DNA of 38,612 bases from Chloroflexota bacterium (lineage in GTDB: Bacteria; Chloroflexota; Dehalococcoidia; Lucifugimonadales; JACQTT01). Positions 4,263-9,417 of this stretch are shown here, one piece after another. Where the stretch lies: positions 1 to 38,612 of the forward strand of contig JACQTT010000083.1 in the NCBI GenBank assembly GCA_016210665.1, given 5' to 3'. Both the position numbers and the translations under genes were made by a program. Position 1 is the first letter of the stretch. Each line of letters begins with the position of its first letter. The notes beneath the pieces were generated by a model. It had not been told where the DNA came from. It worked only from the letters and a program-made list of their open reading frames with translations, and searched no databases.

Positions 4263-5537
4263 ATGGTGGATTTACCCAAAGTAAAAGATGTTGAAAAAAC
4301 AAAGACCTGGCAGGAGATAGACCTACGGATCCTTCTGACCAAGGGAGCTCGTTCTTTGGGAGCAGGTAGCCCAACAGACGCCGGCCTGTCCAGGATATCT
4401 ACTACCTCCGTAGCCAATCCCATTGTCCTGGCTGGAGGAGTTCCCGACCCGGCCACTTTGCCTGTTGATGACCTGCTTAAAGCGATTGGCCACGTTCTGA
4501 CTACCCATCCAGATGAGTCCCTGCGGTATGGAGGAGTTCACGGTTTTGACGGACTCCGCACCGCCCTGGCTGAGCGTCAGAGCAGGATAGAGGGGATTCC
4601 CCTGGTCCCCGAAAACTTCCTCATAGACAACGGCAGCGCTGGCGGCATAGATACTATATGTGACGCCTTTGTTGAATCTGGAGACGTTGTGATAGTCGAG
4701 TCCCCCACATTTTCCGGGTCTTTGCGGACAATCAAGGGCCATATGGCCGAGATTGCGCCAGTACCTCTGGATGACCAGGGTATAATGGTTGACAGAGTCG
4801 CCGAAGTCATAAGACGGACTGAAAAATCAGGCAAACGTGTAAAGCTCGTGTACACGATTAGCGACTTTCATAATCCTACTGGGGTGACTATGTCTCCAGA
4901 GCGGCGTTCAAACCTAGTAAGCCTGTGTGCTGAGCACCATGCTCTTATTGTCGAAGACGCTGCCTATTCTGACATCTACTTCGGTAGCCAACCGCCTGTC
5001 TCCCTATACACCCTGGCAGAAGGACAGGGGATCTTTAAGGTGGGTACATTTAGCAAACCCATCGCCACTGGGCTACGAATAGGTTGGGTTCAAGGGAGGC
5101 CAGACTACATTGAGGCGCTGGCTCAGGTACGCTTCGACATGGGCAACAGCCCATTGCTTCAGATGGCGCTGGCCAAATACGTTGCCTCTGGGATGCTGAA
5201 TACCCACTTAGAAAAGGTTCGTCCCCTCTATGCAGAAAAGTGCGAGACGCTGTGTAAGTCTTTGCGTGATCACTGTGCACAATACATCAGATTCAGAAAG
5301 CCCGAAGGCGGCTTTTTCCTCTGGGTTGAGTGTGTTGGACCTCAAGCCCAGGATGTTGCTCGCGAGGCTATAGAAGAGGGGATATTCTTTCCTTTAGGCG
5401 CAGCCTTTTTCTTCGGCCGCGAAGCGGACGATACTTCTCACATCCGACTCTCCTTCAGCACGGCGACATTAAAGGAGCTGTCTGAAGTAGGCCCAAGACT
5501 GAGAGCCGCTTTCGACCGGGCTATCGGTGAGCGATGA
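4263..5537 (+). CDS. PLP-dependent aminotransferase, class I/II fold (2-aminoadipate / MocR-type aminotransferase domain)
   Basis: AGGVPDPATLPVD, LRYGGVHGFDGLRTALAER, SDFHNPTGVTMS, GTFSKPIATGLRIGW (PLP lysine). Confidence 0.88.
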   Translation: MVDLPKVKDVEKTKTWQEIDLRILLTKGARSLGAGSPTDAGLSRISTTSVANPIVLAGGVPDPATLPVDDLLKAIGHVLTTHPDESLRYGGVHGFDGLRTALAERQSRIEGIPLVPENFLIDNGSAGGIDTICDAFVESGDVVIVESPTFSGSLRTIKGHMAEIAPVPLDDQGIMVDRVAEVIRRTEKSGKRVKLVYTISDFHNPTGVTMSPERRSNLVSLCAEHHALIVEDAAYSDIYFGSQPPVSLYTLAEGQGIFKVGTFSKPIATGLRIGWVQGRPDYIEALAQVRFDMGNSPLLQMALAKYVASGMLNTHLEKVRPLYAEKCETLCKSLRDHCAQYIRFRKPEGGFFLWVECVGPQAQDVAREAIEEGIFFPLGAAFFFGREADDTSHIRLSFSTATLKELSEVGPRLRAAFDRAIGER

Positions 5538-5575
5538 CACCTACCATATGGCCACATGGGGTTAGCTCAGGTCAG

Positions 5576-5683
5576 CCTCTCCCGACTTGTCGGGAGAGGG
5601 ATGGCCATATTGCCCTGGCAGGTCCTCTCCGCCTGCCGAGGTTCGACGGGCAGGTCTTCCCCCTCTCCTTGCAGGAGAGGGGG
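5576..5683. repeat. Intergenic palindromic repeat cluster: two strong hairpins
   Basis: CCTCTCCCGAC-TT-GTCGGGAGAGG (5576-5599) and CCCCCTCTCCT-TGC-AGGAGAGGGGG (5659-5683), both perfect 11-bp arms. Confidence 0.75.
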
Positions 5684-5819
5684 CCAGGGGGTGAGGTATA
5701 TGCTCCCAGAGGGGAAGTGCTCTCTGCAATGAGGCATCTATTTTTGTAAAGAACCAAGGAGACACAACACAAAGTTCAGTCGCCAAATCAATCTACACTT
5801 ATATTAGGAGGAGGAAACC

Positions 5820-6125
5820 ATGTACGGCAGCATATTTCGGATGAAGGTAAAGCCAGGCCAGGAGCAGAAGGTAATTGACCTGTTTAACGAATGGGATAAG
5901 GTGGAAAGGCCCAAGGTCAAAGGGGCGATTGCCGGATATGTTATGAAACCCGATAGTAAGTCTGGCGAGCTTATAGGCGTAGCCGTATTCCAGGATAAGG
6001 CCAGCTACCGGGCCAACGCCGAAAGGCCAGAGCAGGACCGTTGGTTTCGAAAGATGCGGGAGCACCTCCAGGCCGACCCCCAATGGGAAGACGGAGAATA
6101 CCTGAGAAGCCAACTCCCTCGTTAA
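5820..6125 (+). CDS. Small antibiotic-biosynthesis-monooxygenase-like (ABM/dimeric alpha-beta barrel) protein
   Basis: 101 aa, MYGSIFRMKVKPGQEQKVIDLFNEWDK...GYVMKPDSKSGELIGVAVFQDKASYRANAERPEQDRWFRKMREHL. Good SD (aggaggagg) upstream. Confidence 0.7.
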   Translation: MYGSIFRMKVKPGQEQKVIDLFNEWDKVERPKVKGAIAGYVMKPDSKSGELIGVAVFQDKASYRANAERPEQDRWFRKMREHLQADPQWEDGEYLRSQLPR

Positions 6126-6270
6126 GCCAGCGCGTGCGGCCCGGCCATTCTGGTGGCCCCTGATAGATGTCCATGGTCGGCTGGTGGGCATCAATGCCAG
6201 CAAGGCTGTGCTATGATTGTCGCGCAATGGGCGATATTGAGGCGGTTTGTGAAGCGTCATACTGCAAAAG

Positions 6271-6293
6271 TGCAGCCTAATCAATAGTTAGGC
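6271..6293. repeat. Left attC-like half-site / inverted-repeat arm flanking the DUF262 gene
   Basis: TGCAGCCTAATCAATAGTTAGGC. GTTAGGC fits the integron core GTTRRRY; AATCAATAGTTAGGC matches the reverse complement of 8042-8056 at 13/15. Confidence 0.45.
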
Positions 6294-6313
6294 AGGTACA
6301 GGAACGATAGCGA

Positions 6314-8014
6314 ATGGAGTACATCCCAATTCGAGTTAGCGACATAATCCGGCAAGTCAATCATGACATCTATCTCCCGGCTATACAGCGAGAGTTGGTA
6401 TGGAGCACGGATCGTATTGAACGGCTGTTTGATTCAATCATGGCTGATTTTCCCATTGGCTCGTTTCTCTTTTGGCTATTGGAGGAAAAGAACAAGGACG
6501 AGTGGCCAGTCTACGAGTTCATTCGAGATTTCGACGGAGAGTCCCCGCACAATCCGCCTGCGAACATGGCCGGAATCACGAAGGACATCAAGCTCGTCTT
6601 GGATGGCCAACAGCGCATTGCTTCGCTTCTCATCGGACTTCGGGGAAAATACCGTTACTTTCACTATCGTTGGAGAGAGACCCGTCTCTACCTGAACCTG
6701 TTAAAGCCGGCCGTGCCCAATGAGGATAATCCCGAAGAGCTGACCTACGGCTTCGCATTTCGAGAAAGTGCCGATCCGGACCCCAAAACGCCGCAGCTTT
6801 GGTACTTGGTGGGGCGGATTCTGAACTTCAATGACGCCGAGGATGCTAAGTCGGACATGAAGGCGCAACTGGCGAAGTTGCCAGAAGACCAGCAGGAGAA
6901 TGCCAACAAGTTGATCGGTCGTTTGCACAACCGCATTCATACGACTCTCGTCGGGAACTACTATCAGGAGAATTCGCAGGATTACGACAAGGTATTGCAG
7001 ATCTTTGTGCGGGCGAATGCGGCAGGGAAGCCCCTCGAATCCTCTGACCTTTTGCTCGCAACCGCAACTGCCAAGTGGGACAAGCTTGATGCACGCAGTG
7101 AAATCCACGCCTTCACCGATTCACTCAACGAGATCGGCAATAGATACGGTTTTGGTAAGGACTTCGTACTGAAAGCATGTCTGTTCCTTAGTGAGAACCT
7201 GCCCATCCAATACAAAGTCAAGAATTTCACGAAGAAAAACCTTCTCATAATCGAGGGGAATTGGGAGAACATCAAGAAGTCTCTGTCAGCAACAGTGCGG
7301 CTTATCTCTCGTTTTGGCTTTAATGAAAAGAACGTCGTCGCTCCCTTGGCACTGCTACCGATCGCTTTCTACATCATGAAACGCGGCAACTCGTCATTTG
7401 ATACGTCCTCTAAGACCGAAGATGCCGTTTCTCAGGTTGCTATCCGCAGGTGGTTCGTCTTTGCAACCCTCAAGAACGCATTCGGCGGTTCATCTGACAC
7501 TACGTTGACCGGGTTGCGGGAAGAGTTGAGTGATTGCAGCCCGATAACGCCGTTCCCCGCTGATCGCCTCTATAAATCACTCGAAATCGAGCCACGACTC
7601 GGAGACACTGAAATCGACCGCATCCTGGGATTTGGCTACCAAGGCCGGTACACAAACCTAGTCTTGTCATTGCTATACCCTGACCGTGATTGGAGGAATG
7701 CGGTTTTCCATGAGGACCATATCTTCCCGAAGTCTGAGTTCCAGTTGGGGGCATTGCAGAAGCGAGGTTACGACGAGGCAAAGATTCAAGCCTATATATC
7801 GAAGTACAATATGCTCGCCAACCTTCAGTTGCTCACTGACTCAGAGAACCTCTCGAAGAACGCCAGACCTTTTGACGAGTGGATTAAGACGCGAGACGCT
7901 CCGTACCTTAAAAGGCACTTAATCCCCGATCTCCCCAGCCTCGGGTTCGACTCCTTTGAGGAGTTCTCGAGGGCACGTACGGAATTAATCAAGACATCGT
8001 TGAAGAGGATGTAG
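6314..8014 (+). CDS. DUF262 (ParB/Srx-like) + DUF1524/HNH-type nuclease protein, GmrSD-like (candidate defence protein)
   Basis: N-terminus YLPAIQRELVWSTDRIERLFDSIMADFPIGSFLFW and LVLDGQQRIASLL (DUF262 DGQQR motif). C-terminus FHEDHIFPKSEF...KYNMLANLQLLTDSENLSKNARPFDEWI (HNH-like DUF1524 pattern). Confidence 0.88.
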   Translation: MEYIPIRVSDIIRQVNHDIYLPAIQRELVWSTDRIERLFDSIMADFPIGSFLFWLLEEKNKDEWPVYEFIRDFDGESPHNPPANMAGITKDIKLVLDGQQRIASLLIGLRGKYRYFHYRWRETRLYLNLLKPAVPNEDNPEELTYGFAFRESADPDPKTPQLWYLVGRILNFNDAEDAKSDMKAQLAKLPEDQQENANKLIGRLHNRIHTTLVGNYYQENSQDYDKVLQIFVRANAAGKPLESSDLLLATATAKWDKLDARSEIHAFTDSLNEIGNRYGFGKDFVLKACLFLSENLPIQYKVKNFTKKNLLIIEGNWENIKKSLSATVRLISRFGFNEKNVVAPLALLPIAFYIMKRGNSSFDTSSKTEDAVSQVAIRRWFVFATLKNAFGGSSDTTLTGLREELSDCSPITPFPADRLYKSLEIEPRLGDTEIDRILGFGYQGRYTNLVLSLLYPDRDWRNAVFHEDHIFPKSEFQLGALQKRGYDEAKIQAYISKYNMLANLQLLTDSENLSKNARPFDEWIKTRDAPYLKRHLIPDLPSLGFDSFEEFSRARTELIKTSLKRM

Positions 8015-8041
8015 GTGTGGCAAAGTATGGCATGTTCCCGT

Positions 8042-8061
8042 GCCTAACAATCGATTGCAGC
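8042..8061. repeat. Right attC-like half-site / inverted-repeat arm flanking the DUF262 gene
   Basis: GCCTAACAATCGATTGCAGC, 28 nt after the DUF262 stop. GCCTAAC fits RYYYAAC; it is inverted relative to 6279-6293. Confidence 0.45.
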
Positions 8062-8091
8062 GCAGGAAAATTACGGAATGGGCTTGATTCT

Positions 8092-9417
8092 TCAACTGCT
8101 CATCTCGCCCTCCAGGCGGTTGAAGACCAACCCCGTGGGCAGCTTGGGGTAGAAGAAGGTGGCTTTAGGGGGCAGGCGGTTACCCTGGCCCACCACCTCC
8201 TCGAAAAGCTTCAGCGGCAGCGGCCTGAGAAGGATGGCCATCTGCTGCTCCCCCTTCTGAACGGCCCTTACGGCTTCAACGGCGTCGTGGACAAAGGCTA
8301 ACTTTGTGCCAGCCTCATGCTCCCCCAGGACGGGGTTTAAGACCCGCTGGTGCAGGAGCCATGTATCGCACCTCTCCAGTGGCGGGGCCTCGGGGCCAGG
8401 AACGTGGGCATTTTTCAGCGTGAGCAGATAGCCCTTTCCCTTTCCTGAGACCAGCATGAAGCAGCCAAAAACCACGTCCCCTTGTGCCCTTCCCTGCAAC
8501 CCCTCCTCCAGCGTAGCGGCGATCCCCTCCGCCGACAGAGCTGTTAGCTGCAGCTCTTCCCACTCAAAGCGTTCGTTCATAAGGGCGCTGAGGGCCTTCT
8601 CTTCATGGCTGTTCAGACCACCTACCAGCCTATGATAGGGAAAAATAAGAAGGCCTGGGTCGTTCATGGAGATGAGGGTCATCATTACGAAGTTAGCCGT
8701 CGAGGCATCCGATTTTATCGCTCCAGAGGCACGCTGAAGATTACGATAGTTCAAGGCCGTTTCGTACCGGTGGTGCCCGTCGGCCAGATAGACGGGCCGA
8801 TCTGACAGGGCCTCATGGATGCCCCTCAATATGTCCTGGTTCTGGATCACCCATACCCGGTAGATGACTCCATCGCTGGACGCTCCAGCGGCTAGGGAGG
8901 GTTTTGTTCTTGCGGCGCTGAGAAGATGGGTTAGCGCCCCTCCCGAGTCGCTATACAGGGCCATGATGGGGCTGATATTGGCATGGCACGCCTTCATTAG
9001 CTCCAGCCGGTCCTTCTTTGGCGCCGAGGTAGTGTACTCGTGGGGAACGATAACCCCCTTCTCAAACTCCTCCAGCTTCACGCACGCGGTTAGTCCTGTC
9101 CTGACCCTTACCCGACCTCGGAAGTTGAACTCCTCCTCGATCAGGTACATGGCAGACGGGACATCTGGCACCAAGACTCCCTTGGCAAGCCAGCCCTTGA
9201 AGGTGTCAGCGGCACGGGTGTACCTGTTATGTTGGAGGGTGTCATTAGGAAGCTGCTCCGTCAACTCAAGTCGAACCGAGTTGAACGGACTCTTCTGGTA
9301 TAGCTCTCTCTGCTGAGCAGGAGATATAACGTCATAAGGTGGGCAGAGTAGCCGACTCAACTCTCCCACTACTGAAGGGTTATAGCGATAACCTGAAAAG
9401 GGTCTGATATCAACCAT
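8092..9417 (-). CDS. DUF1015 family protein
   Basis: VDIRPFSGYRYNP...LCPPYDVISPAQQRELYQKSPFNSVRLEL, YLADGHHRYETALNYR, FPYHRLV: characteristic DUF1015 motifs. Confidence 0.9.
   Translation of the reverse strand: MVDIRPFSGYRYNPSVVGELSRLLCPPYDVISPAQQRELYQKSPFNSVRLELTEQLPNDTLQHNRYTRAADTFKGWLAKGVLVPDVPSAMYLIEEEFNFRGRVRVRTGLTACVKLEEFEKGVIVPHEYTTSAPKKDRLELMKACHANISPIMALYSDSGGALTHLLSAARTKPSLAAGASSDGVIYRVWVIQNQDILRGIHEALSDRPVYLADGHHRYETALNYRNLQRASGAIKSDASTANFVMMTLISMNDPGLLIFPYHRLVGGLNSHEEKALSALMNERFEWEELQLTALSAEGIAATLEEGLQGRAQGDVVFGCFMLVSGKGKGYLLTLKNAHVPGPEAPPLERCDTWLLHQRVLNPVLGEHEAGTKLAFVHDAVEAVRAVQKGEQQMAILLRPLPLKLFEEVVGQGNRLPPKATFFYPKLPTGLVFNRLEGEMSS

Follow-up and report, generated by a model that had tools for sequence, protein, structure and literature searches.

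A probable single-cassette integron remnant behind an attI-like site in a Chloroflexota order with no detectable IntI

Cassettes that lack an integrase usually come to notice solely through clusters of attC sites, and little has been described of attI sites other than those of class 1 integrons (PMC9024848). Here we report that positions 6217–8061 of a 38,612-nucleotide Chloroflexota contig (the whole stretch of DNA analysed, hereafter referred to as the window) are very probably what remains of an integron unit that had a single cassette and no integrase of its own. The unit comprises an attI-like site, a single gene predicted to encode a BrxU/GmrSD-like type IV restriction enzyme and the 5′ half of an attC site. 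Copies of the left site stand before unrelated open reading frames (ORFs) at about a dozen other loci, one of them in the same genome. An attI and a 3′ segment that are conserved at many loci, in an order without detectable IntI, show where cassettes landed and can be used to search for single-cassette units overlooked by attC software. Furthermore, they raise a testable question about the integrase that loads such units and the spread of these pads, and the cargo in the window extends the known set of cassette-borne phage-defence genes by a type IV restriction enzyme.

Conserved attI-like site upstream of the gene

The features of the unit and its right border are as follows.

6217–6293, forward strand: attI-like site, with a conserved core at 6249–6293 and weaker conservation back to about 6217
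6262–6275, forward strand: hairpin CTGCA-AAAG-TGCAG within the attI-like site, read from the sequence; most copies carry the motif
6287–6293, forward strand: core GTTAGGC, which fits GTTRRRY; similarity between copies stops there and differing ORFs follow
6314–8014, forward strand: cassette ORF of 566 amino acids, predicted BrxU/GmrSD-like type IV restriction enzyme (Pfam, PADLOC, PDB and motifs)
8042–8061, forward strand: attC 5′ half, consisting of R″ (GCCTAAC), spacer and L″ (AATCGATTGCAGC), identified by position-specific scoring matrix (PSSM) rank and a 20-mer match
8062–8091, no strand: putative deletion point before the end of a DUF1015 gene, lacking both the attC 3′ half and the 3′ segment

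From position 6260 the left site reads TACTGCAAAAGTGCAGCCTAATCAATA|GTTAGGC, and the consensus of its copies is GTATAACnCTCCnnTTGGAGnGTTATACTGCAAAAGTGCAGCCTAATCAATA|GTTAGGC; about 20 bp of the upstream part present in most other copies are missing from the window copy. Recombination would have occurred between G6287 and T6288. A leave-one-out profile built from the 12 other loci, with the window excluded, recovered 6249–6292 at 40.5 bits (E=8.2e-12), and its next-best match in the window had E=0.63. Between loci, 75–100 bp of the left site are conserved. The window thus has a site ending in GTTRRRY upstream of its first cassette, assigned to attI by homology and position only. The left flank is thus a landing site of the attI-like type that has been conserved, and not what is left of a decayed attC.

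A promoter scan of the attI region gave no match, nor did an Rfam scan of 5500–8800. In viral contigs, the pattern search and a DUF262 search both came back empty. A 20-mer of the site had three matches in genome contigs, of which two, in Flavobacteriaceae and Pseudoalteromonas, seem fortuitous; the third lies on the contig of one of the sister loci (G028:C51). Further upstream, at 5560–5720, the window contains a palindrome-rich intergenic stretch (CTCCCGACTTGTCGGGAGAGG and following) that resembles intergenic repeats in relatives and on the contig of the second unit in the same genome.

Sister loci carry different genes behind the same site

With a sequence-only model of the left site, which had the window copy among its input, we obtained strong-to-moderate matches in seven of the 250 genomes of the order (G000, G013, G020, G028, G058, G165 and G024) and, within the same class, in G516 and more weakly in G724; across other families of the order and class, the ORF behind the copy differs. 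The second copy in the window's own genome, found by an own-genome search with the whole region, lies at C86:9828–9921 and is 73% identical. It represents the upstream part only, and behind it stand an unrelated ORF and then an attC.

In all 13 tabulated loci the similarity between copies stops at the core. An ORF starts 2–40 nt past it in 12 of the 13, the exception being G516, where the only ORF found starts 148 nt on. The products are unrelated: glyoxalase-like, DUF4145, phosphoribosyltransferase-like, GIY-YIG, HU-like, reprolysin-like and unknown proteins. Behind the ORF, five loci (G000b, G028b, G020a, G020b and G024) have an attC with both core ends, such as ACCCAAC...GTTAGGT in G000b, GCATAAC...GTTATGT in G028b and GCCTAAC...GTTGGGC in G020b, and three more (G028a, G058a and G058b) have a partial one. 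A home-made attC folding scan found the attC sites of G028b, G020b and G550 as well as ordinary palindromes, and missed some true sites; it served as support only. At the weaker match, G724:C291 (L171), the attI-like site lies at about 1492–1542 on the reverse strand, with a BrnT/BrnA-like toxin–antitoxin pair, judged by eye, behind it; its attC also seems to lack the 3′ core.

Moreover, a 3′ segment of about 130 bp is common to six loci at 77–92% identity, with a short match in G058b. This segment is what is left of the beginning of a TIR-domain gene, which reads RISYSEDGQEFAQELSARLRQAG in one frame of G165 and is frame-shifted in the others. It lies at 5531–5656 in L003, 6564–6688 in L028, 7526–7659 in L085 and 6998–7129 in L139, and on the reverse strand in L029 and L032, and is kept at the nucleotide level in at least four genera without an open frame. 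In G037 the segment stands behind an attC and the left site is absent.

In one relative (L132, G020:C56:1-20000), two attI-like sites about 5 kb apart face in opposite orientations, each with its own cassettes. An interspersed repeat of the type AAGCTCAGCAATACCTGC adjoins several units in relatives (L028–L032, L085, L086 and L139) while lying outside them. This repeat, which might bear on the spread of the units, was sought in the window and not found.

Likeness to attI sites beside true intI genes

True IntI was present in 42 of the 400 Chloroflexota genomes sampled, and we searched the left-site model across about 46 distinct intI loci. The seven best matches all lie around the 5′ end of intI, from 42 bp within the gene to 281 bp ahead of it, in divergent orientation, as attI does. 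With the profile hidden Markov model (HMM), the top five matches and six of the top ten fell in the attI region, which makes up about 6% of the strand-bases searched; the reversed profile placed one in ten there, and 40 column-shuffled profiles a mean of 0.65 in ten (maximum 3). The best match at an intI locus (L131, G264) reads TATGCCGCAGAGTGCGGCATAATTATAAGTTAGGC. Single comparisons of the site with intI-adjacent attI are weak, the best scoring 16.1 bits and the two best loci both belonging to G264, and it is therefore the positional enrichment that carries the attI argument.

These data bear on the possibility that the cassette entered a chromosomal secondary (attG-like) site and not a true attI. 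IntI can insert cassettes at non-att sites (attG is mentioned in PMC12444791), and intI is absent nearby. However, secondary sites are scattered and unconserved, whereas the window site is conserved between loci, resembles the attI position at intI loci and has counterparts with a conserved 3′ segment beyond the cassette. We thus regard insertion at a secondary site as unlikely.

Right flank: half of an attC site

Downstream of the gene, GCCTAACAATCGATTGCAGC (8042–8061) corresponds to the R″–L″ half of an attC. In a PSSM built from nine attC 5′ halves of other cassettes, position 8042 came first among 77,172 positions, scoring 16.1 bits where the runner-up scored 11.6. The closest attC-start 20-mer, that of G724, is identical to 8042–8061 at 17 of 20 positions (three mismatches), and 100 shuffles gave no match at that level. 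The original prediction had read both flanks as attC-like half-sites, which holds for the right flank but not for the left, where the attI-like site recurs at a dozen other loci.

The 3′ half is missing. The folding scan found no GTTRRRY partner with complementarity past about 8062, and the best match in the window to the conserved 3′ segment had E=1.8. The locus accordingly holds a 5′ half that is not foldable, in place of a complete attC (R″ L″ ... L′ R′). The end of the DUF1015 gene lies 30 bp past about 8062. A deletion would have taken the L′–R′ half and the 3′ segment; since both are missing, the cassette is probably locked in and no longer excisable. In a synteny comparison aimed at the precise empty site that the prediction had proposed, DUF1015 occurred in 31 of 59 genomes, and none of the 29 loci examined carries the window's neighbouring genes.

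The two flanks had also been read as those of a small transposable element, in which AATCAATAGTTAGGC / GCCTAACAATCGATT would be the terminal inverted repeats and TGCAGC a duplicated 6-bp target. The inverted similarity exists, AATCAATAGTTAGGC (6279–6293) agreeing at 13 of 15 positions with the reverse complement of GCCTAACAATCGATT (8042–8056), and TGCAGC does stand on either side, at 6271–6276 and 8056–8061. The direct repeat carries little weight, as the hexamer recurs at 7535 and 8549. Its left copy comes from the hairpin CTGCAAAAGTGCAG of the attI-like site, a hairpin found in most copies, and its right copy lies within the cassette's own attC half. The sister loci already contradict the transposable unit: their left sequence is constant and reaches tens of base pairs outside the supposed repeat, whereas their right ends vary with the cassette and are attC sites, so that no pair of inverted ends and duplication is common to the copies. 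The unit also lacks a transposase. A transposable element is thus a very improbable reading; that of a captured integron cassette, put forward in the same prediction, agrees with the single ORF, the short flanks and the R″–L″ half at the right end.

The cassette gene encodes a BrxU/GmrSD-like protein

The ORF runs from ATG at 6314 to a stop codon at 8012–8014. As predicted, GTTAGGC (6287–6293) and GCCTAAC (8042–8048) flank the ORF; the first stands 20 nt before the ATG and the second 27 nt after 8014. A G|TTRRRY boundary at 6287–6293, a single ORF and a short 5′ flank, as in a cassette, are thus present in the window and likewise at 12 of the 13 tabulated loci.

Pfam matched GmrSD_N to the ORF (4.8e-30) and reported only this N-terminal domain; PADLOC assigned it to HEC-05 (601.8 bits), and BrxU (PDB 7p9k) matched across residues 16–559 (E=1e-91). 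The protein has RLFDS (6422–6436) and DGQQR (6602–6616) in its DUF262 region and DHIFP (7715–7729) as a C-terminal HNH motif of the form DHI[YF]P, the counterparts of the BrxU motifs that have been assigned to nucleotide binding, hydrolysis and nuclease activity (PMC8565348). We therefore predict a BrxU/GmrSD-like type IV restriction enzyme, which is expected to cut modified phage DNA through DUF262 nucleotide hydrolysis and the HNH motif and would thus act in phage defence. BrxU itself (PDB 7P9K/7P9M, PMC8565348) likewise has RLFDS, DGQQR and an HNH motif, which reads DHIYP where the window protein has DHIFP; the window gene, by contrast, is alone in a cassette and not in a BREX island. The best plasmid homologue found, from Emticicia, is 54% identical, and a second DUF262 homologue in the window's own genome (G000:C87:12211–13854, L025) is 31% identical to the window protein. 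Phage-defence and restriction genes have been reported in cassettes (PMC9668308; also in works cited in PMC12444791), and cargo of this type is therefore to be expected.

That the flanking motifs are coincidental or regulatory (hairpins, a terminator) and that the DUF262 gene was acquired through ordinary horizontal transfer is hardly credible: DUF262 genes are common on plasmids (402 records) and the gene's GC content (0.506) is near the window mean (0.523), but the left (E=8e-12) and right (rank 1/77,172) sites both lie where a cassette predicts, no terminator-like or Rfam match was found, and the sister loci, where copies precede unrelated ORFs and then attC, already contradict it.

No IntI found in the order

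The prediction had described an integrase-free neighbourhood, and the absence extends further: none of the 250 genomes of the order, the window's own included, has an IntI (TIGR02249) above the cut-off. Across the phylum the same query matched 45 genomes, 42 of them above the curated cut-off; no control genome matched in the order-wide run. The own assembly is 74% complete, and for this reason absence from it alone is weak; absence across the order is stronger. No IntI remnants were found near the units at the tabulated loci. In the nearest relatives, the best IntI-like match (L034, G030) resembles a recombinase of the XerC/D type rather than IntI. One genome of the class, G550, does carry an intI; the start of an array lies on the 3′ side of this gene and looks different.

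Proposed mechanism

An IntI outside the present assembly, encoded elsewhere or lost long ago, would have joined a circular cassette carrying the BrxU-like type IV restriction gene to the attI at G6287|T6288. The unit would then be a landing pad, behind whose attI sister loci hold other genes, an attC and often the 3′ segment; in the window, both the 3′ segment and the attC 3′ half may later have been lost by deletion, and with them the ability to excise. We infer both the integration chemistry and when and how the integrase was lost. As no two loci hold the same cassette, each pad was loaded on its own. Pads lie scattered within a genome and resemble one another across families, and no terminal repeats were seen. 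It is possible, although on balance doubtful, that dispersed integrase-free integron shells (attI and 3′ segment) have spread among families of one Chloroflexota order, loaded and reloaded by integrases acting in trans, with some locked by attC truncation. An earlier paper has argued that cassettes lacking an integrase are used in trans (PMC9668308).

Comparison with known systems

The cassette reading of the original prediction is partly supported, being right in kind and corrected here in detail. The window unit works like an integron cassette insertion, but it is neither a complete integron, which has intI adjacent to attI, nor an In0, which has intI without attC, nor a default CALIN. CALINs, defined by default in IntegronFinder 2.0 as at least two attC sites without intI (PMC9024848), likewise hold attC-bearing cassettes with no nearby intI (PMC9024848, PMC8618304), and three routes to their formation have been proposed: integrase loss, off-target insertion and rearrangement (PMC8618304). 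By contrast, units of the window's kind usually have one cassette and retain a conserved attI-like site, accompanied at sister loci by a 3′ segment that is likewise conserved; the window itself, with half an attC, would not be reported by default attC software. Complete sedentary chromosomal integrons of other Chloroflexota (for example G264:C225, L131) likewise have an attI-position sequence ending in GTTAGGC, with a similar core and hairpin, whereas the window's units are scattered, lack intI and do not form one platform with an array. Class 1 integrons (5′-CS and 3′-CS), and the MITE-flanked class 1 integron cited in PMC8618304, similarly have conserved sequence on the attI side and on the 3′ side, with a variable cassette in between; unlike these, the present units have no intI in the 5′ part, an unrelated 3′ part (the TIR-gene remnant) and no terminal repeats that we could see. 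Integrase-less units being already known, the novel aspect is that these integrase-less integron units keep their attI.
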